A stretch of DNA of 64,000 nt from Rhodococcus qingshengii JCM 15477 (GTDB lineage: Bacteria > Actinomycetota > Actinomycetes > Mycobacteriales > Mycobacteriaceae): positions 2,648,501-2,712,500 of the forward strand of contig NZ_CP096563.1 in NCBI RefSeq assembly GCF_023221595.1. Direction: 5' to 3'. Both the position numbers and the translations under genes were made by a program. Positions within the stretch are counted from its first letter, which is position 1. Each line of letters opens with the position of its first letter. The notes under the pieces were generated by a model, which saw nothing but the letters and a program-made list of their open reading frames with translations, was not told the DNA's origin and searched no databases. Of this stretch, positions 5,561 to 64,000 are shown piece after piece.

Positions 5561-6606
5561 TGCGCGATCTCCTGTGTGTTGCTTGCTGTGCTTGCCGAAT
5601 TTTCTGCGGCCGGCGTGAGGTGGCCGTCGAGCCACTCCAACCACAGGTCGAGTTCGGAAAAGGCTGTGGCCAAGGGCTTCTCGGTCGAAAGGAACACGTC
5701 GTGACGGGCGCCGTCGATCGGGACGATGGTGGTGCGATCGCCGAGGCAACCGGCCCAACGTGCGATCTGCTTGACGTCGAGCACGGAATCGGCGAGGTCG
5801 ACGCTCGGGTTGTACGCCTTCGCGAACTGCGACTTCTTCGAGCGCAGAATCAGCGCGGGCACTCCGATGTCTAGGCCGCGGTGAAGTTTTGCGTGACCCG
5901 CTCGGACGGCCCGCATCCAGCCGAAGGTAACGGGGCAGCCTGCCAGTGGCTTCCAGTCGAGGTTGTAATCCCAGACGCCGTTGGCCGAAACATGAAGACT
6001 GGAACCGTAAGTCGGTAGCCCAGTTCCCGGGATCACCGTCTTCGCCGATACCCGTCCGAGCGCATCGATCGCCGTAGTACCGACGTTGCGCACCACTGAG
6101 GGACCCTGAAGGTCGAACCAGGGGCTGTTGAGTACCAGCCCGCAGATTCCGGCGCCGTCGCTGCCACCGGGCTTGCGCTGCAAACGGTTCAGCCAGAGCG
6201 GAACGATCAGACCGCCGGTGGAGTGCGCCATGAGCAGCACCTCGCTGCCCTCGGTCTCGCTGCGGACGATGCGCAGCGCTTCGTTCAGTTCGGCGTCGTA
6301 GAGCGCAAGGTCGGAGACGTAATGAGCTGTGTGCCCCGGTTTGAGGGAGCGGCCGCACTTACGCAGGTCGAGTGCGAAGAAGGCGTAACCCTGCTCGGCA
6401 AAGTGCTCGGCGAGGTGCTTCTGGAAGAAGTAATCGGTGAAACCGTGCACGTACAAAACGGCACGGTGTGTCTTCACCGCCTCCTTCTGCGGTTGGTAGC
6501 GGACCAGTGTTGCGTCCACCTCGCCTTCGCCGTCCGGATCCGTTCCGAGCGGGATCGTCAGCTGCTGATATCCGTCACCGAGGACGTCTGGAACCCAAGT
6601 AGTCAC
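5557..6606 (-). CDS. Alpha/beta hydrolase, lysophospholipase-like (S33-type)
   Basis: The protein has 349 residues. The oxyanion segment [10 protein letters not shown] is near residue 52, the nucleophile elbow MAHSTGG is near Ser129, and a late [10 protein letters not shown] supplies the probable catalytic His. The elbow has Ala where the usual GxSxG has Gly. There is no signal peptide, so it is probably cytosolic. It is the first gene of a two-gene unit with mtr (4-nt overlap), an arrangement that recall suggests is conserved next to mtr in mycobacteria. The substrate is unknown; an ester or monoacyl lipid is the family expectation. Confidence 0.85.
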
Positions 6607-6752
6607 AAATCACAATCTAATCGTCGTTTCGAGTGCGCGTTGTAGAGCACAATTGGGGGTGGTGAACCGCGCGTGTACGCACGGGTAACCTATTCGGCGT
6701 AACACAGCAGGCGGATGCGCGCACGGCTAATGACAAGGAAGTCGATTCTCCA

Positions 6753-51773: not shown

Positions 51774-51954
51774 GTGCACGTCGGTGTTATGCAGCGGAAA
51801 TGAGGCGTTTGCGCTCCCGATTCCCTCCCGAGTCGCCACGGAAAATCGTTACCCGTTGTAACGCTCCTCTCGTACTGGACGACTACTCGAATGACGTTGC
51901 GTGACGCCCCGGGGGTCGGTCGTACGTTTTCCAAAAGTTGATTGGGGAGAAGAT

Positions 51955-53586
51955 ATGCCGGTTCGTGGGTTCTTTTCGCGACATCGAATACTGGCGGGTG
52001 CAGTAGCGCCCGCAGCGCTCGGCGTGGCCGCACTGGTCGCGGTCGCAGTTGCCGTGGATTCTCCGCAATCGCAGACGATCGAGACCGAATTGACCGCGTC
52101 TGTCACCGAGTGTCACGACACGGTCGGGATCGGTGTCGCCGGTCGCGGTGACACGCCGGTCGAGGGTACGACGAAGATGCTCGTCGGTGCGGATGGAAAG
52201 ACACTCCTCCCGGCGGCGCTCACAGACGACTACAGCAGCCACTGGGTGGACCCGGTACTCAAGGCGCCCGCCGGGTCGGTCAAGGACGGCTCGTACGCCT
52301 CGGTCTACATTGCGTACCCCGCCAACATGGACAGTTACGAAGAAGCCGTGACGACGGGCGCGGACAACACGCGAGCGGTCATGAAGGCGATCAGTGCCGC
52401 ATGCCCGAACACGAAGTTCTCGATTGTCGGCTACAGCGAGGGCGCTGACGTAGTGCGCCGCGTGGCGATGGACATCGGCTCGGAGTCGAGCACCTCCGGC
52501 ATCAATCCGGACAACGTCGTCGGTGTGGTGATCTTCGCCGACGCCGGTCGACTCGCGGGCGAGGGCCCGTTCCCCGGCGCGAAAAACCCCTACATGAACC
52601 CTGACGGTTTCAACGAGCAATATCAGGACGGTAAGAACACCGCTTCCGGATCTGGTGCACTTCCAGGTACCAGTGGGGACTTCGGGGCCCTGAAAGGCAA
52701 GATTGCGTCGTTCTGCTCTGACGGCGACCTCACCTGCGCAGCCCCCGAGAACATTTCACTCCTGATCCTGGCGGCAAACGTCGGTCGGCAGCTCAACGTC
52801 GACCAGTTGCAAGCGCAGAATCTGACGCCCGCCACCGGCATGGATATCGCGGTTGTGATGGGACGCGTGATGTTCGACGCGTTCAACGACATCTCGAGCA
52901 ATCCCACCTGGATGCAGAGCGACGAAACCTTCCTCGATGTCTTGCTGAAGGTGTCCGACCCGGCGTACAAGCCGAGCGAGGCCACCACCAAGCCAGTCGC
53001 AAAGGACTCGGTTTCCACGGAGGAAGTGTCGCCGTTGGCGTACCTGCCGCAGAAACTGTTCAAGGAAATCGTCGGCCTCATCGCCACGAACCAGAACACG
53101 ATCCCCGTCGTCATGAACGATCCGTACGGCCTCACTTTGGGCCCGGACGTCGGTCACCACTTCGACTACTGGCGTGATTCGGATGCTGCAAACGGCAAGC
53201 CCCTGACGTCAGCGGAGTATGCAGCGGCGTGGCTGACTTATCTGGCCAAACAGGCGCAAGACGGCAAGCCGGTCGATTCGTCGGCGAAGCCGACCGCAGA
53301 AGAGATGGCGGATGCCATCGATGCCTTGGCTGCTTCGCCTTCGGTTACCGACTCGGCCAAGCCCACCACAACCACGGGCGCAGCTGCACAACCCGCACCC
53401 GCAGGTTCGGGATCTGCAGCACCGGCACCCGCGGTGCCGACGACGTCATCGGTTGCGCCGGCCGCGACGCCGAGTGTGACGTCGACCGTGGCGCCGTCGA
53501 CTTTGGTCCAGTCGAGTGCACCGCCCGCCGCGACCACGGCGACGACAACATCGACGACAACGACGACACAAGCTGCAGCCGGCTAG
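51955..53586 (+). CDS. Secreted cutinase-like serine esterase with Pro/Thr/Ala tail
   Basis: The 543-residue protein has an N-terminal signal/anchor helix (residues about 10-35, after basic RHR). An alpha/beta hydrolase domain of the actinobacterial cutinase-like family follows, with the nucleophile in VGYSEGADVVRR (GxSxG) and the early CHDTVGIGVAGRGDTP. The last 120 residues are Pro/Thr/Ser/Ala-rich, a likely cell-wall-spanning tail ending in a Thr run. It should act outside the membrane on esters such as mycolate lipids. The ATG follows GGGGAGAAG. It ends at a strong terminator. Confidence 0.85.
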   Translation: MPVRGFFSRHRILAGAVAPAALGVAALVAVAVAVDSPQSQTIETELTASVTECHDTVGIGVAGRGDTPVEGTTKMLVGADGKTLLPAALTDDYSSHWVDPVLKAPAGSVKDGSYASVYIAYPANMDSYEEAVTTGADNTRAVMKAISAACPNTKFSIVGYSEGADVVRRVAMDIGSESSTSGINPDNVVGVVIFADAGRLAGEGPFPGAKNPYMNPDGFNEQYQDGKNTASGSGALPGTSGDFGALKGKIASFCSDGDLTCAAPENISLLILAANVGRQLNVDQLQAQNLTPATGMDIAVVMGRVMFDAFNDISSNPTWMQSDETFLDVLLKVSDPAYKPSEATTKPVAKDSVSTEEVSPLAYLPQKLFKEIVGLIATNQNTIPVVMNDPYGLTLGPDVGHHFDYWRDSDAANGKPLTSAEYAAAWLTYLAKQAQDGKPVDSSAKPTAEEMADAIDALAASPSVTDSAKPTTTTGAAAQPAPAGSGSAAPAPAVPTTSSVAPAATPSVTSTVAPSTLVQSSAPPAATTATTTSTTTTTQAAAG

Positions 53587-53613: not shown

Positions 53614-53656
53614 ACAGGCTGCGATCCGCAATTAGTTGCGGATCGCAGCCTGTTTT
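53614..53656 (+). terminator. Strong intrinsic terminator
   Basis: A perfect 18-bp stem (53614-53631 with 53636-53653) and TTAG loop are followed by TTTT. It isolates the cutinase-like gene from the hydrogenase cluster. Confidence 0.92.
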
Positions 53657-53735: not shown

Positions 53736-54065
53736 GTGCACGAGCTGTCCATTGCGCAGAGTGTGGTCGAAGCCGTGTGTGAGCGCGCCGGCGAGCGACG
53801 AGTATCGAGCGTGCGGCTTGAAGTAGGGCAACTCTGCGCGGTGGTTCCACACTCTCTGCTGTTCTGCTTCGACGTCGTCACCGCGGGTACTCACGCCGAA
53901 GGTGCCAGCTTGCACATCGATGAGATTGCAACCAGCGCGCGATGCAAAAGCTGCGGCGTGATGTTCTCGCCGCCCGACATGTTCTTGCTGTGTGAATGCG
54001 GCAGTGCTGATGTCGAGGTGCTTGCCGGCCGAGAGTTACGGATCCTGTCGATGGAAGTGAGCTGA
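53736..54065 (+). CDS. hypA: Hydrogenase nickel-insertion protein HypA
   Basis: The 109-residue metallochaperone delivers Ni2+ to the hydrogenase large subunit. The N-terminal MHELSIAQSVVEAV contains His2, the nickel ligand, and fixes the GTG at 53736 as the start. The zinc domain carries CKSC (residues about 74-77) and LCECGS. It is the first gene of the cluster, 2 nt before hypB. Acidic pair patterns match HypA/HybF. Confidence 0.95.
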   Translation: MHELSIAQSVVEAVCERAGERRVSSVRLEVGQLCAVVPHSLLFCFDVVTAGTHAEGASLHIDEIATSARCKSCGVMFSPPDMFLLCECGSADVEVLAGRELRILSMEVS

Positions 54066-54067
54066 GC

Positions 54068-54868
54068 ATGTGCGCGACGTGTGGGTGCGGGGACACCACA
54101 GGACCTCGGGTGTCGGTAGTCGCAGACGGAGAACACGAGCAGGAACACGACGGTCACGGGCACGGTCACGAGCATGACCATGAGCACGGCCACCCCGACC
54201 ACACCGTGATTCTCGAGCAGCAGGTGCTCGCCAAGAACGACGGCATTGCGGTTCACAATCGTCAGTGGATGCGGAGCCGCAGAATCACGGCGCTCAACAT
54301 CATGAGTTCCCCCGGCGCGGGGAAGACGACATTGCTGGCGCGAACTATCCGGGAGCTCGGATGTCAGCGACCGATAGCCGTGATCGAAGGTGACCAGGAA
54401 ACCCGGCTCGACGCCGAGCGGATCCGAGAGACCGGCGCGTCGGTGGTGCAGGTGAATACCGGGGCCGGATGTCACCTCGATGCCGCGATGATCGACCGCG
54501 CACTGCGCGCCTTGGATCCCGCTGAAGAATCGCTGCTTCTGATCGAAAACGTCGGAAACCTGGTGTGCCCCGCGCTCTTCGACCTCGGCGAGGAAGGCAA
54601 GGTTGTCCTAATTTCGACGCCGGAGGGGGTAGACAAGCCGAAAAAGTACCCACACATCTTCGCTGTCGCGGACCTCGTGGTGATCAACAAGATCGACTTG
54701 CTCCCGTACGTCGAGTTCGACGTCGATGCCTGCGTCGAGCAGGCGAGAATACTCAATCCTGCTGTGCGCGTTGTTGTTTTGTCTGCCACGACAGGTGAGG
54801 GCATGGACGAGTGGTACGAGTGGATCGGTAGTCGTTCGGCGATTTCTCCGGTGGCCGTTGACAACTGA
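54068..54868 (+). CDS. hypB: Hydrogenase nickel-incorporation GTPase HypB
   Basis: The 266-residue GTPase delivers and stores Ni2+. It has the N-terminal CATCGC high-affinity site (Cys2, Cys5, Cys7) and a His/Asp/Glu-rich stretch at about residues 22-45 (a nickel-storage region). The P-loop SPGAGKTT is at 81-88, and INKIDLLPYVEFD provides the guanine-specificity motif. It works with HypA. A 181-bp spacer without a gene separates it from hhyS. Confidence 0.96.
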   Translation: MCATCGCGDTTGPRVSVVADGEHEQEHDGHGHGHEHDHEHGHPDHTVILEQQVLAKNDGIAVHNRQWMRSRRITALNIMSSPGAGKTTLLARTIRELGCQRPIAVIEGDQETRLDAERIRETGASVVQVNTGAGCHLDAAMIDRALRALDPAEESLLLIENVGNLVCPALFDLGEEGKVVLISTPEGVDKPKKYPHIFAVADLVVINKIDLLPYVEFDVDACVEQARILNPAVRVVVLSATTGEGMDEWYEWIGSRSAISPVAVDN

Positions 54869-55049
54869 TCTGCTCGGGTAGTTAATGAAATGAGTGGGTG
54901 CCACGCAAGTGGGCCGAGGTTCGACTCCGGTGGCGTCAGCGTTTCGGTGCCGCGGCAATTCGAGGCCACAGAGTCTTGAGGCCATAGCGTGTCAGGCCAG
55001 TCGCGGCGCTGAGAGTCAAGGCGCAAGTGCACCCGTGAAAGCGGCTGAC

Positions 55050-56165
55050 ATGGACACACAAAAATCGACTGCTGGCACCACGGCGGAACCTGCCTCCGAA
55101 AGCGCAGCTACCCCCGCAAGCGCAGCGGCCAAAGCGGAAGAAACTCTGATCCACGTGCTGTGGATCAATGCCGGTCTCAGTTGCGACGGAGATTCGGTGG
55201 CGCTCACTGCAGCCACGCAACCCAGTATCGAGGAGATCGCGCTCGGCGCCTTGCCCGGCCTGCCGCAGGTAGCGGTTCATTGGCCGCTCATCGACTTCGA
55301 ATGCGGACCGCAGGGTGGCGCTGACGATTTCCTGGAGTGGTTTTGGAAAGCCGACCGCGGAGAACTGGAACCCTTTGTTCTTGTTGTCGAAGGATCGATA
55401 CCGAACGAGAAACTTCACGACGAGGGGTATTGGTGCGGCTTCGGGAACAATCGCGAAACCGGCCAACCGGTCACCACGAGCGAATGGCTCGACAAGCTGG
55501 CACCGAAAGCCACTGCGGTAGTTGCGGTCGGTACGTGCGCGACCTACGGCGGCATACATGCGATGGCCGGCAATCCGACCGGTGCGATGGGCGTGCCGGA
55601 CTATCTCGGGTGGACCTGGAAATCGAAGGCGGGCATCCCGATCGTCTGCGTTCCCGGGTGTCCCATTCAGCCGGACAACCTCTCCGAGACCCTGACCTAC
55701 CTTCTGTACATGGCCACTGATCAGGCGCCGATGATTCCCTTGGACGAATCCCTGCGCCCGCAGTGGCTTTTCGGTGCCACCGTACACGAGGGCTGTGACC
55801 GTGGTGGGTACTACGAGCAGGGTGAGTTCGCGACGGAGTACGGGTCACCGAAGTGCATCGTCAAACTCGGATGTTGGGGACCGGTCGTGAAATGCAATGT
55901 CCCCAAACGTGGTTGGATCAACGGAGTCGGCGGGTGTCCTAATGTCGGCGGGATCTGCATCGGGTGCACGATGCCGGGATTCCCCGACAAGTTCATGCCG
56001 TTCATGGATGAACCACCTGGCGGCAAACTCTCCACCAATGCGGTGGGAATGTACGGGTCCGTGATCCACAGTCTCCGCCGGATCACCGGAAACACGTTGG
56101 ACAAGGAACCGCACTGGCGCGAGCGCGGGTCGAAATTACTCACCGGTGCGACGCGTACGTGGTGA
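55050..56165 (+). CDS. hhyS: Group 1h [NiFe] hydrogenase small subunit
   Basis: The 371-residue Fe-S electron-transfer subunit belongs to the actinobacterial-type, O2-tolerant, high-affinity uptake hydrogenase. It lacks the Tat twin-arginine signal and the C-terminal membrane helix of membrane-bound group 1 enzymes; about 30 residues of Ala/Thr/Ser leader are disordered. Proximal cluster ligands are C45, D48 (CxxD rather than CxxC), C163 and C204. Distal cluster ligands are H246, C249, C269 and C275. Medial cluster ligands are C282, C303 and C306. Starts ATG 55050 or GTG 55035; neither has a good ribosome binding site. hhyL follows after 54 nt. Confidence 0.93.
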   Translation: MDTQKSTAGTTAEPASESAATPASAAAKAEETLIHVLWINAGLSCDGDSVALTAATQPSIEEIALGALPGLPQVAVHWPLIDFECGPQGGADDFLEWFWKADRGELEPFVLVVEGSIPNEKLHDEGYWCGFGNNRETGQPVTTSEWLDKLAPKATAVVAVGTCATYGGIHAMAGNPTGAMGVPDYLGWTWKSKAGIPIVCVPGCPIQPDNLSETLTYLLYMATDQAPMIPLDESLRPQWLFGATVHEGCDRGGYYEQGEFATEYGSPKCIVKLGCWGPVVKCNVPKRGWINGVGGCPNVGGICIGCTMPGFPDKFMPFMDEPPGGKLSTNAVGMYGSVIHSLRRITGNTLDKEPHWRERGSKLLTGATRTW

Positions 56166-56219
56166 CCGACCGGATACATTCAAATCAGTTCGTGAGCAAC
56201 GTCTCTGGGAGGCACTGCA

Positions 56220-58013
56220 ATGACGGCCATCGTTCCCGAACCCACCTCGACTGCAGACCGCGACGGTCTTGTCGAGATGGCGTGGGACCCCATCACCCGA
56301 ATCGTCGGCAGTCTGGGTATCTACACCAAGATCGACTTCGCCAATCGCGAAGTGGTGGAGTGTCACAGCACGTCGTCGATCTTTCGCGGGTATTCCCTGT
56401 TCATGAAGGGGAAGGACCCGCGCGACGCGCATTTCATCACCAGTCGTATCTGCGGCATCTGCGGTGACAATCACGCCACATGCTCGTGCTACGCACAGAA
56501 CATGGCGTACGGCGTCAAGCCGCCGCATCTGGGCGAGTGGATCGTCAATCTCGGCGAGGCCGCCGAGTACATGTTCGACCACAACATCTTTCAAGAGAAT
56601 CTTGTCGCCGTCGACTACTGCGAGAAGATGGTCTCCGAGACGAATCCCGGTGTGCTGGCGCAGGCAGAGAACACGCGCTGCCCGCACGAGGAGCAGCACG
56701 GGTATCGCACGATCGCGGACATCATGCGGACTCTCAATCCGTTCACGGGTGAGTTCTATCGCGAAGCGTTGCAAGTCTCGCGTTCGACTCGCGAAATGTT
56801 CTGCTTGATGGAGGGCAGGCACGTTCACCCGTCGACGCTCTATCCCGGCGGCGTCGGCACCGTCGCGACGATCGAACTGATGACGGACTACATGTCGCGG
56901 CTGATGCGGTACGTCGAATTCATGAAGAAGGTCGTGCCGATGCACGACGACCTGTTCGACTTCTTCTACCAGGCGATGCCTGGTTACGAAAAGGTTGGCC
57001 TGCGGCGGACCCTGCTGGGTTGTTGGGGATCGTTCCAAGACCCCGAGTACTGCAATTTCTCCTACAAGGACATGACCGACTGGGGCCGGAAGATGTTTGT
57101 CACTCCCGGTGTGGTTGTCGACGGAAAGTTGGTCACCACGGATCTGGTGGACATCAACCTCGGTATCCGGATCATGCTGGGCTCCTCGTATTACGAGGAC
57201 TGGAGTGATCAGGAGATGTTCGTCAAAACCGATCCGCTGGGTAACCCGGTCGATCGCAGGCACCCGTGGAATCAGCACACCAACCCTCACCCGCAGAAGC
57301 GGAACCTCGAGGACAAGTACAGCTGGGTCATGTCACCGCGATGGTTCGACGGAAAAGACAACCTTGCTCTGGATACGGGCGGGGGAGCATTGGCTCGTCT
57401 GTGGAGCACCGCTCTGGCCGGCCTGGTCGACATCGGATACCTGGAGTCGACCGGACACAGTGTGAAGATCAATCTTCCGAAAACAGCACTGAAGGGTCCT
57501 GTCTCGCTCGAGTGGAAGATTCCCGAACATGGCAGCAATACCCTCGAAAGAAACCGCGCGCGAACGTATTTCCAGGCATACGCAGCCGCGGCTGCCCTTC
57601 ATTTCGCCGAGAAGGCGCTTGTCGAGATCCGGGCCGGCCGGACCAAGACGTGGGAGTCGTTCGAGGTCCCGGACGAGGGTATCGGTTGCGGATTCACCGA
57701 AGCCGTCCGCGGAGTTCTCTCACACCACATGGTGATTCGTGACGGAAAAATCGCGAACTATCACCCGTACCCACCGACACCGTGGAATGCGAGCCCGCGC
57801 GACAGCTACGGAACCCCCGGCCCGTACGAGGATGCCGTGCAGGGTCAGCCGATCTTCGAGGAGAACGATCGAGACCACTTCAAGGGCATCGACATCATGC
57901 GGACCGTGCGTAGTTTCGATCCCTGCCTGCCGTGTGGTGTTCACATGTATCTCGGCGGTGGCAAGACCCTGGAGAAGTTGCACTCTCCGACGCAGTCCGT
58001 GACCGGGGAGTGA
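56220..58013 (+). CDS. hhyL: Group 1h [NiFe] hydrogenase large subunit
   Basis: The 597-residue catalytic subunit splits H2 at the NiFe(CN)2CO centre. The L1 motif is R76-I-C78-G-I-C81-G-D-N-H85 and the L2 motif is D567-P-C569-L-P-C572-G-V-H575. Together the four Cys bind the metals. After H575 there is a 22-residue tail that must be removed after nickel insertion by the protease at 61727. The enzyme is predicted cytosolic or membrane-associated on the inside and scavenges atmospheric H2. The ATG is preceded by GGGAGG. Confidence 0.97.
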   Translation: MTAIVPEPTSTADRDGLVEMAWDPITRIVGSLGIYTKIDFANREVVECHSTSSIFRGYSLFMKGKDPRDAHFITSRICGICGDNHATCSCYAQNMAYGVKPPHLGEWIVNLGEAAEYMFDHNIFQENLVAVDYCEKMVSETNPGVLAQAENTRCPHEEQHGYRTIADIMRTLNPFTGEFYREALQVSRSTREMFCLMEGRHVHPSTLYPGGVGTVATIELMTDYMSRLMRYVEFMKKVVPMHDDLFDFFYQAMPGYEKVGLRRTLLGCWGSFQDPEYCNFSYKDMTDWGRKMFVTPGVVVDGKLVTTDLVDINLGIRIMLGSSYYEDWSDQEMFVKTDPLGNPVDRRHPWNQHTNPHPQKRNLEDKYSWVMSPRWFDGKDNLALDTGGGALARLWSTALAGLVDIGYLESTGHSVKINLPKTALKGPVSLEWKIPEHGSNTLERNRARTYFQAYAAAAALHFAEKALVEIRAGRTKTWESFEVPDEGIGCGFTEAVRGVLSHHMVIRDGKIANYHPYPPTPWNASPRDSYGTPGPYEDAVQGQPIFEENDRDHFKGIDIMRTVRSFDPCLPCGVHMYLGGGKTLEKLHSPTQSVTGE

Positions 58014-58016
58014 TCG

Positions 58017-58919
58017 ATGGAGCAATCGGCCGACTACTGGCGCGGAGCAGGTGAGCGCATCGAGACGTTGTTGCAGGCCAACGCCGGCGCAGGCCCGGTG
58101 GCGAGAGATCGCGCCGAGCAACTGGTGCGTGAGGTCGTGCAGTTGTACGGCGCAGCACTCGAACGCACCGTCGCTCTGGCAGATCCGGCCACGATGGATG
58201 CGATGGTTCGCGACGATCTGGTGTCCAGCCTGCTACTGGTGCACGGACTTCACCCGCACGACGTGGAGACCCGCGTCCGCACTGCGCTCGACAGCGTGCG
58301 TCCGTACCTCGGTTCGCACGGAGGCGACGTCGAACTGATCGAGGTGGCGGACGGCGTAGTGCGACTACGGCTTCTCGGAAGCTGTAGCAGTTGCCCTTCG
58401 TCCTCGGTGACCCTCGAAACCGCGGTCCAGGACGCGGTGCAGGCGGCGGCACCCGAGACCACCGGAATCGACGTCGAAACACCGGATTCGCATGAGCTGA
58501 AGTCGGGTGTGATTTCGGTCGAGTCCCTGTTCTCGCACGTTCACGCCGACGGGGGAGGTACGCACTGGGTGGAGGTCCCCGAATTCGCCGAAGTCGAGGT
58601 GGGAGAGGTCGCGGGCTTCCGCGTGTCGGGCACCGATCTGTTGGTCTGCCGCTCCGGTGACGATCTGTACGCGTATCGCGACCGTTGCCCGGTGTGTGAG
58701 CACTCGATGGCGGGGGCTGTGCTCGAACGCATGATGGGCCGTCCTGCCCGAGACGCCGCTGTCCTCACCTGTCCGACGTGCTCTGCCCACTTCAGTGTGT
58801 ACGGGGCGGGAGCGCGGGTGGGCACCGGCTCCGAGCACCTGGCGCCTGTGCCGGTGCTGATTCGCGACGGAGTGCTCTCGGTCGCGCTTGCTGACGATTC
58901 TGTGATACCGGTGACCTAG
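58017..58919 (+). CDS. hhyE: Hydrogenase-linked NifU/Rieske-like Fe-S protein (HhyE type)
   Basis: The 300-residue protein lies directly after hhyL (3-nt gap). The N-terminal 80 residues are helical. A NifU C-terminal-like domain (about 85-155) carries LGSCSSCPSSSVTLE with C123-x2-C126, a 4Fe-4S scaffold motif. A Rieske-fold domain (about 185-300) has C227-E-H229 and C255-S-A-H258. Two extra Cys, C224 and C252, lie three residues before each motif. In mycobacteria the HhyE/HucE proteins next to hydrogenases are proposed electron relays to the respiratory chain (recalled). That function is inferred here. Confidence 0.85.
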   Translation: MEQSADYWRGAGERIETLLQANAGAGPVARDRAEQLVREVVQLYGAALERTVALADPATMDAMVRDDLVSSLLLVHGLHPHDVETRVRTALDSVRPYLGSHGGDVELIEVADGVVRLRLLGSCSSCPSSSVTLETAVQDAVQAAAPETTGIDVETPDSHELKSGVISVESLFSHVHADGGGTHWVEVPEFAEVEVGEVAGFRVSGTDLLVCRSGDDLYAYRDRCPVCEHSMAGAVLERMMGRPARDAAVLTCPTCSAHFSVYGAGARVGTGSEHLAPVPVLIRDGVLSVALADDSVIPVT

Positions 58920-58938
58920 CCGTGAACGCAGCCCGGTC

Positions 58939-59559
58939 ATGAAAGTCACTGTGGGAGAGGTGCTCACACGAATCGCCTCGTCGCGTGTCGTTCCGACCGG
59001 ACCGAGGTGTGAGATGTGTGCGGCGGGCATAGGCGACGAACACCAGCACGTCGTGGACGTACAGGTCCGGAGCCTGATGTGCGTGTGCCGACCCTGCTAT
59101 CTACTCTTTGCACCGGTCGACGCGGACCTTCGATACAAAGCGGTTCCCGATCGGTACCTCGAGTTTCCGGACTTCGACCTCGGCCCTGGCCGGTGGGAGT
59201 CTCTGGAAATCCCCGTCGGCCTGGCATTCTTCTTCCGCAACTCACTCCTCGACAAGTACATAGTCCTCTATCCGGGACCGGCCGGAGCTACCGAATCCGA
59301 GTTGCCCATCGACTCGTTCGAGACTGTGCTCGAGGAGAATCCGGGGCTCGCGCAGATGCGGGCCGACGTCGAGGCGTTGATCGTGTCGGTGCCCACGTCA
59401 GGACAATCGCCGAGATGCTTCGTTGTTCCCATCGACGCCTGTTACGAACTGGTGGGACGATTGCGCACCGTGTGGCGCGGATTCGACGGTGGCCAGGATG
59501 CCGCACGCGCAGTGGACGAGTTCTTCGGGCGCGTCGAGGCGCGAAGCAGGTCGGCATGA
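58939..59559 (+). CDS. DUF5947 family protein, hydrogenase-associated
   Basis: The 206-residue protein has an N-terminal metal-binding knot: C24-x2-C27, a His pair (H35, H37), then C48, C50 and C53. An alpha/beta domain without known catalytic motif follows, with RYLEFPDFDLGPGRWESLEIPVGLAFFFRN. The family is found, as far as I recall, in group 1h hydrogenase loci and has no assigned function. The start is ATG 58939, 19 nt after hhyE. It overlaps the next gene by 4 nt (ATGA). It could be an assembly factor or an electron-transfer partner. Confidence 0.75.
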   Translation: MKVTVGEVLTRIASSRVVPTGPRCEMCAAGIGDEHQHVVDVQVRSLMCVCRPCYLLFAPVDADLRYKAVPDRYLEFPDFDLGPGRWESLEIPVGLAFFFRNSLLDKYIVLYPGPAGATESELPIDSFETVLEENPGLAQMRADVEALIVSVPTSGQSPRCFVVPIDACYELVGRLRTVWRGFDGGQDAARAVDEFFGRVEARSRSA

Positions 59560-60194
59560 CTGTTCTCGACTTCTCGATCGACAACATGGAGGTGGAACCG
59601 TACGCGGTTACGCCGAATCTGACGGTGAGATTGAGAATGTCGGAATCCACCGGCACGACCGTCCGTGCGGTGGCTCTGCGCGCGCAGGTACGAATCGAAC
59701 CACACCGCCGACCGTACTCCGACGCCGAAGGCGAAGGTCTGCGCGATCTCTTCGGTCCGCGGGAGCGTTGGTCGAGTACGCTGCGCACCTTCCTGTGGAT
59801 GGAATGTTCCACGGTCGTTCAAGGATTCACCGGAACAACGGTCGCGGCCTTGCCCATGGCGTGTACGTACGACTTCTCGGTGACGGCGTCGAAGTACATG
59901 CACGCACTCGGAGACGGAACGATTCCGATCGTGGTTCTACTGAGCGGCACGGTATTCACCGACGGACCGCGTGGGTTCTCCGTGCAGCAGATCCCGTGGG
60001 ACAGATCTGCTGCCTACGAATTGCCGGTCGACGTGTGGAAACAGCTGATGGCTGCGCATTATCCGGCGTCTGGTTGGGTACGCCTCGACCATGAGACGAT
60101 TGCCGATCTCGTGCGGTTCAAGGCAGCGCACGGCCTCACGGACCTCGATTCAGCCGTGCGGCAGTTGCTGACGGCGAGCCAGGTGCCGCGATGA
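59556..60194 (+). CDS. DUF6084 family protein, hydrogenase-associated
   Basis: The 212-residue, mostly beta-strand protein has no Cys motif. Recognisable conserved-looking parts are LDFSIDNMEVEPYAVTPNLTVRL, LFGPRERWSSTLRTFLWME, and a C-terminal helix after IPWDRSAAYELPVDVWKQLM. No membrane segments or signal peptide are visible. It is overlapped by 4 nt on both sides (ATGA), so it is made together with DUF5947 and the next protein. Its function is unknown; a beta-sandwich scaffolding or chaperone role for the hydrogenase is a guess. Confidence 0.75.
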   Translation: MTVLDFSIDNMEVEPYAVTPNLTVRLRMSESTGTTVRAVALRAQVRIEPHRRPYSDAEGEGLRDLFGPRERWSSTLRTFLWMECSTVVQGFTGTTVAALPMACTYDFSVTASKYMHALGDGTIPIVVLLSGTVFTDGPRGFSVQQIPWDRSAAYELPVDVWKQLMAAHYPASGWVRLDHETIADLVRFKAAHGLTDLDSAVRQLLTASQVPR

Positions 60195-61552
60195 CTCGAA
60201 CGGGGATGGATCACGACGTTCGGGCCGTGGCCGACGCCGTCCTGTACGAGGGATATCTTCTCTATCCCTACCGGGCCGGCTCGGCGAAGAATCAATCCCG
60301 TTGGCAGTTCGGGGTTCTCGGACCGCCCGGCGCCGCCGAGGTCGGAGTCGGCGAGGAACCGTCGATGTCCGCGCAATGTCTGCTCGGCGAATTCGAGCGG
60401 AACGGCGTCGAAGTTTCTGCGACTGTGAGATTTCTGCACCACCAGTCGCGGACGGTTGAACGACTCGGCGCCGGCGGGGCGTGGATCCCGGTCGATCGGT
60501 TGGTAGTCGGCGAGCGGGAGTCGATCTCGTGGGACGAAGCCACCGAGTCCGAGATCGTGTTGGGTCCGTGGGGTCTGGACGAACTCGAGGCCGGCGTCGA
60601 AGAAACCTTCTGTGCGGCCGGAGTTGTCGAAGGAGAGACTTTGTCGGACTCTCGGGGCAGGGTGGTCGGACGGATCGTTCGGACACGGCTTCCGGTCAAT
60701 GGCCTCTTGGCAGTGAGCGCCTCCGCCGGGGACGGACGCACGGTGATTTCCGTGGAGATCATGAACGCCACGAGCGTCTACGCACGGGACAAGGGCACGG
60801 CCACCGCGCAATCGATGCTGGGGACTCACGTCATTGTGAACTGCACAGGCTCGAGGTTCCTGTCGTTGTTCGAAGAAGCAGATCACTCGGAGCAGTTGCG
60901 GCAAAATCGCTGTTATCCGGTGCTTGCGGGGACCGAGGACCCCACTCACCCTGGCACATCTCCCACCGTTCTGGTGTCACCGATCATCCTGTACGACTTT
61001 CCCGAGATTGCGCCGCAGAGCGAGGGATCTCTCTTCGACTCGACCGAGATCGACGAAATTCTCACCCTGAGAATCCTTGCCATGACCGACGAGGAAAAGG
61101 CGCGGGCGCGAGCTACCGACTCCAGAGCTGCCGACATCATCGACCGATGTGAGCGATTGACGGACGACGATCTAGCCGGCCTGCACGGCGTGCTGCGAGA
61201 TTCGAATGCCGGTTCTGATCTGATACCCGAGGTGCCTGACGGTGTGGACTGGTGGACCCCGGAAGCCGACACCAGTGTTCAACCACGCACCGACGCAGTT
61301 CTGATCAACGGCGTCCGTGTCTCTGGTGGAAGTACGGTTCGGCTCCACCCCTCACGCCGCGCTGATGCTCAGGACCTGTTCTTCGACGGCCGGATCGCCC
61401 ACGTCGCCACCATTCATGAAGACGTGGACGGCGACATTCATGTTGGGGTGACACTGTTGGACGATCCGGCCGCCGATCTGCACAACTGGTACGGCCGCTA
61501 CCTGTACTTCGCGCCGGACGAGATAGAGCCGATGCCGCGCGACAGCGCGTGA
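60191..61552 (+). CDS. Conserved hydrogenase-locus protein, 453 residues, unknown function
   Basis: A soluble protein begins with AVLYEGYLLYPYRAGSAKNQSRWQFGVL, an unusual Tyr-rich block. An Asp/Glu/Arg-rich alpha/beta region follows and contains a helix LTLRILAMTDEEKARARAT. A short C-terminal beta-barrel-like domain (about 395-450) has VRLHPSRRADAQDLFFDGRIAHVATIHEDVDG. No Cys pairs, P-loop or transmembrane helix is present. The start overlaps the DUF6084 stop. It is reported in the same operon position in other actinobacteria as far as I recall. I do not recognise a family with known activity. Confidence 0.7.
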   Translation: MTRTGMDHDVRAVADAVLYEGYLLYPYRAGSAKNQSRWQFGVLGPPGAAEVGVGEEPSMSAQCLLGEFERNGVEVSATVRFLHHQSRTVERLGAGGAWIPVDRLVVGERESISWDEATESEIVLGPWGLDELEAGVEETFCAAGVVEGETLSDSRGRVVGRIVRTRLPVNGLLAVSASAGDGRTVISVEIMNATSVYARDKGTATAQSMLGTHVIVNCTGSRFLSLFEEADHSEQLRQNRCYPVLAGTEDPTHPGTSPTVLVSPIILYDFPEIAPQSEGSLFDSTEIDEILTLRILAMTDEEKARARATDSRAADIIDRCERLTDDDLAGLHGVLRDSNAGSDLIPEVPDGVDWWTPEADTSVQPRTDAVLINGVRVSGGSTVRLHPSRRADAQDLFFDGRIAHVATIHEDVDGDIHVGVTLLDDPAADLHNWYGRYLYFAPDEIEPMPRDSA

Positions 61553-61600
61553 CGTACTCACAGCTATCGAACTTCACCGCTATCGAGAGGAGAACTCGCC

Positions 61601-61720
61601 ATGAGGAGCATGGGATTGCTGTCGACGGCACTTCTCGGCGCCACCGCGATCGCAGCCGCGATCGTCCTGGTGGTGTCGATGCCGGACATCCAGCGCTATC
61701 TGCGAATGCGAAAGATGTAA
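61601..61720 (+). CDS. 39-residue single-helix membrane peptide
   Basis: The small frame starts with ATG after GAGAGGAG and encodes one 20-residue transmembrane helix (about residues 5-25, Ala/Val/Leu/Ile-rich). A positively charged tail follows, with DIQRYLRMRKM. The basic tail predicts a cytosolic C-terminus. It resembles the DUF6893 type of small proteins by layout (recall only). The gene is 48 nt after the 453-residue protein and 6 nt before the protease. It could anchor the otherwise soluble hydrogenase to the membrane. Confidence 0.7.
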   Translation: MRSMGLLSTALLGATAIAAAIVLVVSMPDIQRYLRMRKM

Positions 61721-61726
61721 AGCGCT

Positions 61727-62221
61727 GTGCGCGTGCTGATTGCAGGTGTCGGAAACATTTTTCTCGAAGACGACGGATTCGGCCCCGAAGTTGTTCGGGC
61801 GCTGCAGCATGAGAATCTCCCATCGGGAGCTCGCCTGGTCGACTACGGGATTCGGGGCGTGCATCTGGCGTACGACTTGTTGGAGTCGTGGGACGCCCTG
61901 GTCCTGATCGACGCCTTACCGGCGACCGGAGTCCCGGGCAAGCTCGCGATCATCGAAGTGGACCCCGAAAGTGAAGGCCCGCAAGGAGGTTTCGACGCGC
62001 ACTCGATGCATCCGAGTTCGGTGTTTGCCAGCCTGCAGGCCCTCGGCGGAACACTCCCGCGGACGTTCGTGGTGGGGGCACATGCGAAATCGATCGGCGA
62101 CGGAATCGGATTGAGTGCGGAGATGCGTGATTCGGTAAGGCAAGCCGCTTCTGCGGTGCTGGCACTCGTCCGGTCCATCGACGTGGACTGTGATGCCACC
62201 ACACTGGGGCCGGAGGTGTGA
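61727..62221 (+). CDS. Hydrogenase maturation endopeptidase (HyaD/HoxM type)
   Basis: The 164-residue, nickel-dependent aspartic-type protease has GVGNIFLEDDGFGPEVVRAL, with Glu and Asp in the GNxLxxDDGxG signature. It then has DYGIRGVHLAYDLLESWDALVLIDA and a later DAHSMHP with His near the metal site. It clips the C-terminal tail of the large subunit after nickel insertion. The start is GTG at 61727. hypC follows after 3 nt. A substrate tail is present in hhyL. Confidence 0.93.
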   Translation: MRVLIAGVGNIFLEDDGFGPEVVRALQHENLPSGARLVDYGIRGVHLAYDLLESWDALVLIDALPATGVPGKLAIIEVDPESEGPQGGFDAHSMHPSSVFASLQALGGTLPRTFVVGAHAKSIGDGIGLSAEMRDSVRQAASAVLALVRSIDVDCDATTLGPEV

Positions 62222-62224
62222 GTC

Positions 62225-62512
62225 ATGTGTCTGGGGATTCCGGGACGGGTACGCGAACTACTGGACGGATACGGAGGTCAACTCGCTCTCGTCGACGTGG
62301 AGGGGGCACCACGCAAGGTCAACATCGGAATGCTCGACGAAGGCACCGTCACGGCAGGTGACTGGGTGGTGATCCACATGGGCTTCGCAGTCGAGAAGGT
62401 CGACGAGCAGGGAGCTCGCCACGCTCGGGCCGGCCTCGAACTGATGGGCCGTGGTGGCCACGACGGTGAGGTAGTCGACTCCGATACTGGTAACGGCGAG
62501 GTCGGGACATGA
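62225..62512 (+). CDS. hypC: Hydrogenase maturation chaperone HypC
   Basis: The 95-residue protein begins with MCLGIPGRV, where Cys2 binds the Fe precursor and must be exposed. It also has a HypC-typical core (VDVEGAPRKVNIGMLDEG, DWVVIHMGFAVEKVDEQ). It carries the Fe(CN)2CO unit between HypD and the large-subunit precursor. The end overlaps hypF by 4 nt (ATGA). Confidence 0.96.
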   Translation: MCLGIPGRVRELLDGYGGQLALVDVEGAPRKVNIGMLDEGTVTAGDWVVIHMGFAVEKVDEQGARHARAGLELMGRGGHDGEVVDSDTGNGEVGT

Positions 62513-64000
62513 AGATCGCCTGCCGTGTCATCGTTCGTGGCGTAGTCCAGGGGGTGGGCTTCCGGCCGTTCGTCCATGCGACCGCCACCGAACTGGGACT
62601 GTCGGGTTCGGTGGGAAATTCTGCTCTCGGTGTCGTGATCGACGTCGAAGGCGACGGAGAGACAATCGATGCATTTGTCGCTCGGGTGCGAAACCGCCCC
62701 CCACCGCTGGCACGGGTGGAGTCGGTAGAGCGCGAGGACTCGCGGCCGGTTGGTCGTGAGGGGTTTCGCATAGTCGAGACGGATGCGGGGTCGGTCGGGC
62801 GAACCTTGGCGCCGGCGGATGTCGGGATCTGCGACGACTGCCTCCGGGAACTGACTGATCCGAGCGATCGGCGATATCGTCATCCATTCATCACCTGCAC
62901 CAACTGCGGTCCGCGATTCACGATCATCGAATCGCTGCCCTACGACCGGGCCGCTACGACGATGAAGCGATTCCCGTTGTGCGCGAACTGTGCGGCGGAG
63001 TACGTGGATCCCGCCGACCGCCGGTTTCATGCGCAACCGATTGCCTGCCCGCAGTGCGGTCCAACGCTATCGTTCGTGGAAGGGGACGCGCCCGCCGTGA
63101 CCGGTGAGGGTGCACTGCTACGAGCCCGATCCCTACTGCGAGACGGGAAGATTCTTGCTGTCAAGGGAATCGGAGGATTTCACCTGGCTTGTGATGCCCG
63201 CGACGACCGCGCGGTTCACGAGTTGCGTGAACGCAAGCATCGAGCAAGCAAGCCGTTGGCGGTGATGGTGCGCGATGTGCCAGAAGCCAGAGAGTTGGGT
63301 GTGGTCGGTGATGCCGAGGCTGATGCCATGTCCTCGCGCGAGCGCCCGATTGTGCTGGTTGCCAAAGCGTCTGGATACGCGCTTTCCCCCTTGATTGCCC
63401 CCGGCATTCCGGATATCGGAATCATGCTGGCCTACAACCCGATTCAGCATCTTCTTCTGGGTTTGGCCGGAGAAGAGGCGGGCCCAGCGGTGTTGGTCAT
63501 GACATCGGCGAACATCGGCGGTGAGCCGATTCTGTACTCCGACAACGATCTCGAACGATTGGGTGACCTGGCCGACGGGGTATTGACCCACAACCGTCCG
63601 ATCTTGATGCCGTGTGACGACTCGGTGATGCGAATAGTCGGCAGTGGAAGACAGTTGCTTCGTCGCTCGCGCGGATATGCTCCGCTGCCCGTCACCGCGC
63701 CGTTCGACGTACCGCCTACCTTGGCGGTCGGGGCCGACCTGAAGAACACCTTCTGTCTTGCCGAGGACGGATATGTGTGGCCGAGTCAGCACATCGGAGA
63801 CATGGGCGACCTCGCTGTCATCGACAGTTTTGCTGCGTCGGAGAGTCACTTCGAATCGATCACGGGGGTGGTGCCGCACCAGATCGCCTGTGACGAGCAT
63901 CCTCGGTATCGCTCGTCCTCGTGGGCTCGCAGTCGTAGTGGTGACCGACCGGTGCGCATCGTCGGGCATCACCACGCACATGTGGCTTCCGTGATGGGGG
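62509..64000 (+). CDS. hypF: Carbamoyltransferase HypF, 3' end outside window
   Basis: HypF makes S-carbamoyl-HypE, the source of the cyanide ligands. 497 residues are visible. An N-terminal acylphosphatase-like domain (GVVQGVGFRPFVHA) is followed by a four-CxxC zinc region (CDDC, CTNC, CANC, CPQC). A YrdC-like nucleotide domain has KHRASKPLAVMVRD. The start of the Kae1-like domain carries VGHHHAHVASVMG. hypC and hypF overlap by 4 nt. HypD and HypE are expected just beyond the edge. Confidence 0.97.
   Translation, partial: MKIACRVIVRGVVQGVGFRPFVHATATELGLSGSVGNSALGVVIDVEGDGETIDAFVARVRNRPPPLARVESVEREDSRPVGREGFRIVETDAGSVGRTLAPADVGICDDCLRELTDPSDRRYRHPFITCTNCGPRFTIIESLPYDRAATTMKRFPLCANCAAEYVDPADRRFHAQPIACPQCGPTLSFVEGDAPAVTGEGALLRARSLLRDGKILAVKGIGGFHLACDARDDRAVHELRERKHRASKPLAVMVRDVPEARELGVVGDAEADAMSSRERPIVLVAKASGYALSPLIAPGIPDIGIMLAYNPIQHLLLGLAGEEAGPAVLVMTSANIGGEPILYSDNDLERLGDLADGVLTHNRPILMPCDDSVMRIVGSGRQLLRRSRGYAPLPVTAPFDVPPTLAVGADLKNTFCLAEDGYVWPSQHIGDMGDLAVIDSFAASESHFESITGVVPHQIACDEHPRYRSSSWARSRSGDRPVRIVGHHHAHVASVMG

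Follow-up and report, generated by a model that had tools for sequence, protein, structure and literature searches.

Accessory genes of a Rhodococcus group 1h [NiFe]-hydrogenase locus form one module with a probable maturation factor and a candidate membrane anchor

INTRODUCTION

Uptake of atmospheric H2 by soil bacteria has been called the primary sink in the H2 cycle (PMC6883350), and group 1h [NiFe]-hydrogenases are among the enzymes held responsible for it (PMC7174314). These enzymes are described in PMC7174314 and PMC13332983 as membrane-associated with no known anchor, and it has been argued that this association sets their high affinity (PMC7174314). In M. smegmatis, the group 1h enzyme Hhy (MSMEG_2722-2718 and downstream) is under DosR control (PMC13098282), and its H2 oxidation requires an HhyE of the same type as the one described here (PMC6883350). 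In Cupriavidus necator H16, the group 1h cluster (HofKG, PHG064-PHG070) runs hofK-hofG-NifU protein-DUF5947-DUF6084-unnamed protein-protease, and four of its open reading frames, PHG066-069, have already been noted as being of unknown function (PMC4377017). Here, we compare a Rhodococcus locus with these systems and ask what its accessory proteins may do.

RESULTS AND DISCUSSION

A group 1h locus with closely spaced accessory genes

The window (the whole stretch of 64,000 nucleotides that was analysed) ends in a run of genes on one strand, in the order hypA-hypB-hhyS-hhyL-hhyE-DUF5947-DUF6084-U453-39-aa peptide-protease-hypC-hypF, where U453 denotes a 453-residue protein. Gene order, single direction, and identities were all as given in an earlier, sequence-only reading.

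53614..53653, +, terminator-like hairpin before hypA, 18 pairs followed by a T-rich tail
53736..54065, +, hypA, nickel chaperone, 109 aa; PF01155 97.9 bits (a longer frame from 53229 was scanned)
54068..54868, +, hypB, GTPase, 266 aa; TIGR00073 278 bits (cut-off 121.2)
55050..56165, +, hhyS, small subunit, about 371 aa, start uncertain; PF14720 and PF01058
56220..58013, +, hhyL, large subunit, 597 aa; PF00374 226.5 bits
58017..58919, +, hhyE, 300 aa, NifU-like domain and CxxC...CxxC domain; PF01106 79.7 bits
58939..59559, +, DUF5947 gene, 206 aa; PF19372 232.9 bits (curated cut-off 25)
59556..60194, +, DUF6084 gene, 212 aa; PF19562 290.9 bits (curated cut-off 25)
60191..61552, +, U453 gene, 453 aa, N-terminal domain at about residues 1-340
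61283..61549, +, U453 C-terminal domain, residues 365-453
61601..61720, +, 39-aa membrane peptide, DUF6893; PF21833 54.4 bits (curated cut-off 24.6)
61727..62221, +, maturation protease, HycI/HupD type, 164 aa; PF01750 46 bits, TIGR00072 110.2 bits
62225..62512, +, hypC; PF01455 73.6 bits
62509..64000, +, hypF, cut by the window end; TIGR00143 568 bits

The gaps are 3 nt between hhyL and hhyE, 19 nt between hhyE and the DUF5947 gene, 48 nt between U453 and the peptide, 6 nt between the peptide and the protease, and 3 nt between the protease and hypC; DUF5947/DUF6084, DUF6084/U453, and hypC/hypF each overlap by 4 nt. The tight spacing claimed from hhyE to hypF is borne out at six of the seven junctions in that stretch (4-nt overlap or gap of at most 20 nt). 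In the genome, the full hypF encodes 762 aa (locus L143, 6010-8298), and reaches about 0.8 kb beyond the window; after it come another hypC, hypD, a gene whose product has an AIRS domain and which is presumably hypE, and a gene for a DUF6390 protein. The region holds 7 terminator-like sites against 6.1 expected, and the hairpin before hypA has the longest stem among the matches listed. A DosR-type box, searched with up to two mismatches, matched 22 times in the window against 28 expected, with no match before hypA or hhyS.

This is a group 1h [NiFe]-hydrogenase locus. HhyL carries the L1 motif TSRICGICGDNH and the L2 motif SFDPCLPCGVH, both in agreement with the group 1h motifs quoted in PMC5364354, and its one solved relative at E<=1e-60 is HofG (5aa5, 1062.7 bits). 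In group 1h small subunits, the proximal cluster is held by three cysteines and a conserved Asp ligand (PMC5364354); the sequence CDGD (C45-D46-G47-D48), present in 116 of 116 aligned HhyS and in HofK, would contain this Asp. By eye, HhyS has neither a Tat signal nor a C-terminal membrane helix, matching group 1h, and hydropathy exceeded 1.6 in 3 of the 116 small subunits.

The accessory genes form one module

An HhyL profile matched 118 loci, of which the 107 with at least 6 kb 3' of HhyL were used for counts; the genomes surveyed were Actinomycetota, with other phyla represented through plasmid loci. HhyE, DUF5947, and U453 were each found in all 107 loci (one U453, at locus L157, is shortened by a stop), the protease in 105, DUF6084 in 103, and the peptide in 99. 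Among 396 Actinomycetota genomes, U453 occurred in 41, 39 of which belong to the 41 genomes with an HhyL of at least 65% identity; the mismatches (two HhyL genomes lacking U453 and two U453 genomes lacking such an HhyL) look contig-cut. DUF5947 was detected in 25 and DUF6084 in 23 of 27 cassette genomes, against 0 of 53 genomes without a detected group 1h HhyL, 15 of which carry more distant HhyL-like hydrogenases.

The accessory genes of the group 1h locus thus form one module, as the sequence-only reading had proposed: rather than being missing from most group 1h loci, they are near-universal in those examined, and DUF5947, DUF6084, and U453 are absent where a group 1h HhyL is lacking, barring the two contig-cut cases. 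The same reading reserved known roles for the structural, hyp, and protease genes, which is too narrow, since hhyE deletion in M. smegmatis lowers H2 oxidation (PMC6883350). For O2 protection, another role which that reading had listed, none of the present observations offers support. As a set, these genes have been published before, under the label 'unknown'.

U453 and the maturation protease

U453 gave no match in Pfam or NCBIfam. In some relatives it is two separate genes, and its C-terminal domain occurs elsewhere either on its own, as a protein of about 100 aa, or joined to the protease (3 loci of the set and 41 of 46 database matches). Because this domain also occurs as a fusion with the maturation protease, U453 resembles a maturation factor more than the electron carrier that had been considered for it, and on this sequence evidence it probably acts in maturation. 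The fusion may partly reflect plain gene adjacency. We did not find this maturation link in print; it gives a starting point for work on U453, the largest of the uncharacterised proteins here. A match of U453 to acyl carrier protein (E 0.12) did not recur in profile searches and was dropped; Pfam Phage_TAC_7, seen in 27 of 69 U453 members (best E 1.3e-4), was taken as chance helical resemblance.

The 39-aa peptide as a candidate membrane anchor

The peptide is built of one helix and a basic tail (PDIQRYLRMRKM), and GAGAGGAGA lies at 61585-61593, upstream of its ATG. It is the sole consistently hydrophobic protein among eight tested. Helix positions vary, while the tail is invariant and ends RY-x5-M-stop, with R32, Y33, and M39 in 100 of 100 aligned peptides (copies chosen by a profile that includes the tail). 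A profile-free search for a helix followed by RY-x5-M-stop gave 109 matches in 2,438,005 bases of 123 loci, 108 of them either no more than 900 bases from an end of U453 or the protease or located in three plasmid loci; 180 shuffles of those plasmid loci gave none. Mean net charge (n=99) was -0.11 for the first six residues and +3.22 for the last twelve, the tail being the more positive in 92 peptides.

Its gene precedes that of the protease in 85 loci and follows it in 14; the order with the peptide behind the protease is also seen in C. necator and Methylocystis parvus. The two genes always share a strand and lie no more than 357 nt apart (104 of 104 loci). Gene tables of three plasmid loci examined omit it; in C. 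necator H16, the frame (L183, 17669-17770) is missing from the PLSDB gene table, which describes itself as incomplete.

We regard the peptide as the best candidate for the group 1h membrane anchor, and it is to this peptide that the membrane attachment proposed earlier for the accessory set can now be tied. The fuller claim, that it is the missing anchor, docks through its C-terminal RY-x5-M, and was overlooked through small size, is tentative and falls short of even odds. Several observations count against an anchor: (i) the peptide, found in all of the 74 close relatives, occurs in no more than 25 of the 33 loci from a wider draw; (ii) by Pfam, DUF6893 passes the threshold in 17 of the 27 genomes with the cassette and in one of the other 53, and one genome has two extra copies away from recognised hydrogenase genes; (iii) the C. 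necator enzyme is described as cytoplasmic despite the peptide frame (PMC7174314, PMC4377017); and (iv) the group 1h enzyme of M. fumariolicum SolV is membrane-associated, yet according to PMC7174314 this organism has no homologues of the hypothetical proteins that the acidobacterium Pyrinomonas encodes in its operon, and carries two other hypothetical membrane proteins in their place.

The eight peptide-less loci comprise four of one Streptomyces-like lineage, one degenerate locus, two from deep branches, and one whose RY-x5-M form is divergent. A crude frame pick inside five of these clusters and L198 revealed no replacement same-strand helix gene. Peptide-less L179 has a 93-aa one-helix frame on the opposite strand directly before hhyS, and L176 a four-helix frame on the opposite strand before U453. 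We found in print neither the invariant tail of the peptide, nor its place behind the protease gene in C. necator and M. parvus, nor its candidacy as an anchor.

HhyE, DUF5947, and DUF6084

In HhyE, C224, C227, C252, and C255 are each kept in 104 of 111 aligned sequences; of the 117 loci in which no contig end cuts HhyE, 13 lack the CxxC...CxxC domain. Pfam Rieske scored this C-terminus at 25.5 (cut-off 20.3), but the candidate His ligands are poorly kept (H229 in 11 and H258 in 64 of 111), and a Rieske assignment was rejected. An HhyE-DUF6084 frame at L162 was also rejected as a fusion, since it passes through a repetitive Arg-Asp stretch, has no DUF5947, and stops at a contig edge.

DUF5947 has a candidate seven-ligand metal site (C24, C27, H35, H37, C48, C50, and C53), with each residue in 113-115 of 115 aligned sequences and all seven invariant in 26 diverse ones, including Cupriavidus and Methylocystis. 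We did not find this conservation from Rhodococcus to Proteobacteria, set against the loss of the HhyE domain, in print. For DUF6084, the guess of a SecB-like chaperone was not borne out (hhalign probability 0.6 over 29 columns), and a match to a viral capsid protein (E 0.0048) was dropped after failing to recur in profile searches. PDB sequence and profile searches gave no usable match for U453, its C-terminal domain, DUF5947, DUF6084, or the peptide.

Proposed mechanism and alternatives

Drawing on module membership, conservation, the fusion, and the invariant tail, we infer an accessory module with a maturation role for U453 and a peptide anchor (probability roughly 0.43). HhySL would be synthesised in, and remain in, the cytoplasm, where HypABCDEF would build the NiFe centre. 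U453 would present the large subunit to the HycI-type protease, or check it for cleavage, its C-terminal domain being the portion that works beside the protease. HhyE (NifU-like) and DUF5947 would load the small-subunit clusters or carry electrons off. The peptide would hold the mature enzyme at the inner membrane face, with its variable helix in the bilayer, N-terminus out, and its conserved tail P-D-x-x-R-Y-x5-M docked on the enzyme, placing the electron exit near menaquinone; DUF6084, as a soluble protein, may bridge the two.

A maturation role is possible for the peptide too, because the protease is its constant partner. Taken further, all five accessory proteins could be assembly factors, none remaining in the mature enzyme, with the peptide holding a protease/U453 station at the membrane. 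The fusion, the NifU scaffold domain of HhyE, and the unbroken strand and distance relation between peptide and protease genes all speak for this, as does the peptide-less Streptomyces-like lineage, whose protease gene either lies on the opposite strand or was not located close by. However, HhyE is reported to co-localise with HhyLS on native gels and has been argued to be the electron acceptor (PMC6883350), and the account would not explain why the finished enzyme associates with the membrane; we consider this account rather unlikely.

By analogy with HucM in Huc, the set might instead serve electron delivery, with HhyE and DUF5947 passing electrons from HhyS to menaquinone and DUF6084 and U453 structural in a large complex. 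H2 uptake requires HhyE, MSMEG_2717 and PHG067 have been proposed as acceptors (PMC6883350), and the seven Cys/His of DUF5947 are kept across Actinomycetota and Proteobacteria; yet that site could equally bind zinc, the CxxC...CxxC domain is dispensed with in the 13 loci noted above, and the protease fusion points towards maturation for U453, which leaves this the less probable of the two. That the genes are chance neighbours or a transferred block with no hydrogenase role is very improbable: co-inheritance would likewise yield co-occurrence, but linkage persists through rearrangement (U453 upstream of hhyS in one Streptomyces-like lineage, the peptide on either side of the protease), and the set also occurs in two Proteobacteria.

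If the peptide is the anchor, it would be what enables a seemingly soluble enzyme to feed menaquinone from atmospheric H2. The membrane-attachment question is directly testable through one small deletable gene, which should also be included when group 1h enzymes are expressed in new hosts.

Comparison with known systems

The C. necator H16 cluster matches this locus from the structural genes to the protease, its unnamed protein being of U453 size, but has a short HhyE (192 aa) and hyp genes ordered otherwise. For the M. smegmatis locus, the available portion of PMC6883350 assigns no role to the peptide, DUF6084, or U453. Huc (group 2a) is likewise a trace-H2 enzyme that has to reach membrane menaquinone, for which HucM provides a tubular link to the membrane (PMC10017518); it belongs to another hydrogenase group, and HucM is by description a coiled-coil protein of about 188 aa, in contrast to the one-helix peptide here. 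Group 1d enzymes (E. coli, C. necator MBH) are also O2-tolerant uptake hydrogenases requiring a membrane partner, but they have a membrane electron-transfer subunit (PMC6883350) and a small subunit with a C-terminal helix (PMC5364354), neither of which is among the genes identified here.

Gene cluster and group assignment

From 53736 to the window end, on the plus strand, the genes run hypA, hypB, hhyS (small subunit), hhyL (large subunit), hhyE, DUF5947, DUF6084, U453 (a 453-residue protein without a Pfam family), a 39-residue peptide (DUF6893, PF21833), a HycI-type protease, hypC and hypF. The junctions are tight, and the sequence-only reading of a one-direction hydrogenase cluster is confirmed in gene order, strand and spacing. 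Past the window end, in the genome's own locus (L143), hypF runs to its end and is followed by a second hypC, then hypD, a protein with an AIRS domain (presumably hypE), DUF6390 and an ABC transporter resembling SbmA/BacA. A terminator-like hairpin lies upstream of hypA, and the upstream cutinase-family gene is apparently unrelated to the hydrogenase cluster. HhyL is 99% identical to its counterparts in Rhodococcus sp. IEGM 1409 and P-2, and U453 is 91% identical to an R. erythropolis protein.

Neighbours of the cluster
Window 51901-53586: cutinase-family protein with a long Pro/Thr/Ala-rich tail, upstream neighbour
L143 10783-11532 and 11465-13381, beyond the window end: DUF6390 gene, then SbmA/BacA-like ABC transporter, closing the hyp part

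Judged by its motifs and relatives, the locus encodes a group 1h [NiFe]-hydrogenase. HhyL carries both group 1h motifs as quoted in excerpts of PMC5364354, its sole solved relative at E≤1e-60 is HofG, the large subunit of the Cupriavidus necator group 1h enzyme (5aa5), and the CDGD motif is present in all 116 aligned HhyS relatives. On inspection, neither a Tat signal nor a C-terminal membrane helix was seen in HhyS; therefore, the enzyme is expected on the cytoplasmic side, where the same excerpts place group 1h enzymes.

Two observations concern annotation. In three plasmid loci, the group 1h small subunit is tabulated as "hydrogenase expression protein HypE" (L183 10878-11933, L184 8911-9990, L185 8875-9936). 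This is apparently a misnaming: another hypE is tabulated separately in each, and the L183 translation has the CDGD motif. Three large subunits 37-39% identical to HhyL contain one in-frame TGA (G301:C102:66458-68116, G365:C39:5258-6940, G385:C4:65427-67094) and are possible selenocysteine (NiFeSe) enzymes.

Accessory genes across group 1h loci

A contig scan with HhyL gave at least 592 matching stretches, 589 of those listed encoding HhyL relatives; the best 80 were kept, all Actinomycetota by title. A further draw took in 396 Actinomycetota genomes, including the source genome; HhyL matched in 57 at E≤1e-60 (41 at ≥65% identity, 16 at 37-44% only). Loci were taken from 38 of these 41 (G013, G084 and G164 were left out), together with two contigs that carry U453 without a ≥65% HhyL, and an iterated profile for each protein was run over the resulting 120 loci. 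HhyL was matched in 118; 11 of these have <6 kb of sequence downstream of HhyL and were excluded, leaving 107 (74 out of the best 80 contig-scan stretches and 33 out of the draw).

The sequence-only reading had held that the unassigned proteins probably belong to the system and had proposed their co-occurrence across actinobacterial group 1h loci as a check. The counts support this reading: HhyE, DUF5947 and U453 were found in 107/107 loci, the protease and HhyS in 105 each, DUF6084 in 103 and the peptide in 99. The four losses of DUF6084 and eight of the peptide are confined to the draw loci (29/33 and 25/33 present), which bear most of the evolutionary weight because the loci of the contig scan are closely related (87-99% HhyL identity). 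Two Nocardia albiluteola contigs gave identical coordinates and scores. One of the 107 loci, L157 of the Streptomyces-like family f5, has a U453 gene ended early by a stop (5896-6666) and no recognisable protease or peptide; this cluster is apparently decaying.

The set is also specific. U453 occurs in 41 of the 396 genomes; 39 of these also belong to the 41 that have a group 1h HhyL. The mismatches look like assembly breaks: the G028 contig stops ~1.5 kb after HhyL, the HhyL match of G164 is only partial, and the U453-bearing contigs of G169 and G194 start or stop within the cassette (hydrogenase plus accessory genes). A set of 80 genomes was chosen: 27 carry the cassette, 15 have HhyL-like hydrogenases of the more distant kind only, and 38 have neither. 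DUF5947 was found in 25/27 cassette genomes versus 0/53 others, DUF6084 in 23/27 versus 0/53, and DUF6893 above its cut-off in 17/27 versus 1/53. The sole control match sits at the very start of a contig, with hypA and hypC behind it, and is therefore probably a cut hydrogenase cluster. On this sequence evidence, the genes form a genuine module in the group 1h hydrogenases that were examined. DUF6893 may also serve further complexes: G169 has two further copies on short contigs (L194 2208-2561, L195 2134-2250), where twelve profiles find no hydrogenase gene.

A membrane peptide with an invariant tail

The peptide reads MRSMGLLSTALLGATAIAAAIVLVVSMPDIQRYLRMRKM. In an alignment of 100 copies, variation is free in the helix, whereas R32, Y33 and the final residue M39 are invariant and P28, D29 and R37 seldom vary; RY-x5-M-stop ends 106/106 profile matches. 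Since the profile itself includes this tail, the search was also made profile-free, for any frame in which RY-x5-M-stop closely follows 19 residues averaging >1.6 in hydropathy. In 2,438,005 bases of 123 loci, 109 places fit, and 108 of these are either ≤900 bases from where U453 or the protease ends or in one of the three plasmid loci; the latter were scored as on-site by default, and their peptide positions were checked separately. The remaining place is in L165, ~3.6 kb before hhyS. In the plasmid loci the frames begin 13 to 34 bases past the protease gene, and 60 shuffles of each gave no helix with RY-x5-M-stop. These frames are missing from the PLSDB gene table, which describes itself as incomplete, and the original records may differ.

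Peptide frames and related features
L183 17669-17770: peptide frame, C. necator pHG1, 3' of the protease gene
L184 15356-15454: peptide frame, Methylocystis parvus, 3' of the protease gene
L185 15536-15640: peptide frame, Kitasatospora, 3' of the protease gene
L165 4542-4646, minus: extra DUF6893 copy, ~3.6 kb before hhyS
L179 7447-7728, minus, opposite to the cluster: 93-residue one-helix frame in a peptide-less locus, directly before hhyS

Where found by profile, the peptide is on the protease's strand and ≤357 nt away (104/104 loci; ≤60 nt in 78). It alone among eight proteins tested is hydrophobic as a rule (99/100 copies >1.6, median 2.55); the other seven exceed 1.6 in 0-18 copies each, with medians of 1.21-1.39. 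Its tail is basic, with a mean charge of +3.22 versus -0.11 for the first six residues. A basic flank marks the cytoplasmic side of a membrane (the positive-inside rule), and the tail would therefore lie in the cytoplasm, on the same side as the enzyme.

U453 and the maturation protease

U453 is highly conserved, with 99 positions kept in ≥90% of 112 sequences, and 7986 of the best 8000 of more than 8000 candidates, ranked by shared words, pass as relatives. Profile and PDB searches found no family and no solved relative. The protein is split into two genes in four loci (L168, L169, L170, L182; ~335 matched residues in the N-terminal part, ~100 in the C-terminal part). In three others (L172, L173, L177) the C-terminal part and the protease form one fused protein, the C-terminal part first, as in L172, where it takes up residues 11-108 and the protease 112-272; L178 and L198, of the same family, lack the fusion. 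A search with the C-terminal part of L177 among proteins of similar total length gave 46 clusters, and 41 of these include the PF01750 protease family. Because the fusion order is the gene order, adjacency may have aided fusion. Its occurrence in many clusters nevertheless suggests a shared job, in which U453 would guide or check the large subunit as it is matured by proteolysis.

HhyE, DUF5947 and DUF6084

The Pfam assignment of the HhyE C-terminus as Rieske was rejected: the four Cys are kept in 104/111, the two His in only 11/111 and 64/111. This Cys conservation agrees with the two CxxC motifs described for HhyE in excerpts of PMC6883350. The domain is missing in 13/117 loci (excluding L055, where a contig end cuts HhyE) and, by length, also in C. 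necator (192 aa) and Methylocystis (174 aa). In DUF5947, C24, C27, H35, H37, C48, C50 and C53 are kept in 113-115 of 115 aligned sequences, all seven in 26/26 of a diverse set. If one protein is a general redox or metal-loading partner, DUF5947 would be a better candidate than the HhyE C-terminal domain; iron-sulphur and zinc both fit its candidate site.

DUF6084, for which no relative was found, has invariant motifs and is mostly soluble by hydropathy (12/112 exceed 1.6). In one lineage, inferred to be Streptomyces (L171, L174, L175, L176), U453 stands before hhyS and both DUF6084 and the peptide are gone, probably by a single event; their joint loss is therefore at most a hint of cooperation between the two. 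In L162 (17226-18824), the NifU part of HhyE and DUF6084 share one frame via an Arg-Asp repeat, without DUF5947, which may be a real fusion or an assembly effect.

A candidate membrane anchor and comparison with known systems

The gene set has already been published as of unknown function, in the parts of PMC4377017, PMC12319191 and PMC13332983 consulted; the last puts the number of hypothetical proteins in the Rhodococcus cluster at four and states that an anchoring subunit has yet to be identified. In open-licence PMC we found no published counterpart of the peptide with an invariant tail across two phyla, of the U453-protease fusion or of the contrast between DUF5947 and the HhyE C-terminal domain. 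There, the names and accessions of DUF5947, DUF6084 and DUF6893 led in full text to a single paper, on an antibiotic judging by its title and first abstract lines, and among the matches listed for group 1h and small membrane proteins (20 of 487) no title or opening text described such a peptide.

The peptide may be a membrane anchor of the group 1h hydrogenase. For the M. fumariolicum group 1h enzyme, excerpts of PMC7174314 report membrane association despite the absence of a helix or signal peptide, through an unknown partner, and propose that this association may set the enzyme's affinity. Several points stand against the peptide as anchor: (i) 8/107 loci lack it by profile, although L177 among them has a divergent form ending RYAKFEGM. 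Frame picking, applied to five of the eight, gave no same-strand replacement, and the L179 frame may be either a different membrane partner or a chance frame. (ii) C. necator has the peptide frame, yet its enzyme is described, in excerpts of PMC7174314 and PMC4377017, as cytoplasmic. (iii) The M. fumariolicum strain SolV is described, in similar excerpts, as without homologues of the Pyrinomonas operon hypothetical proteins and with two other hypothetical membrane proteins instead.
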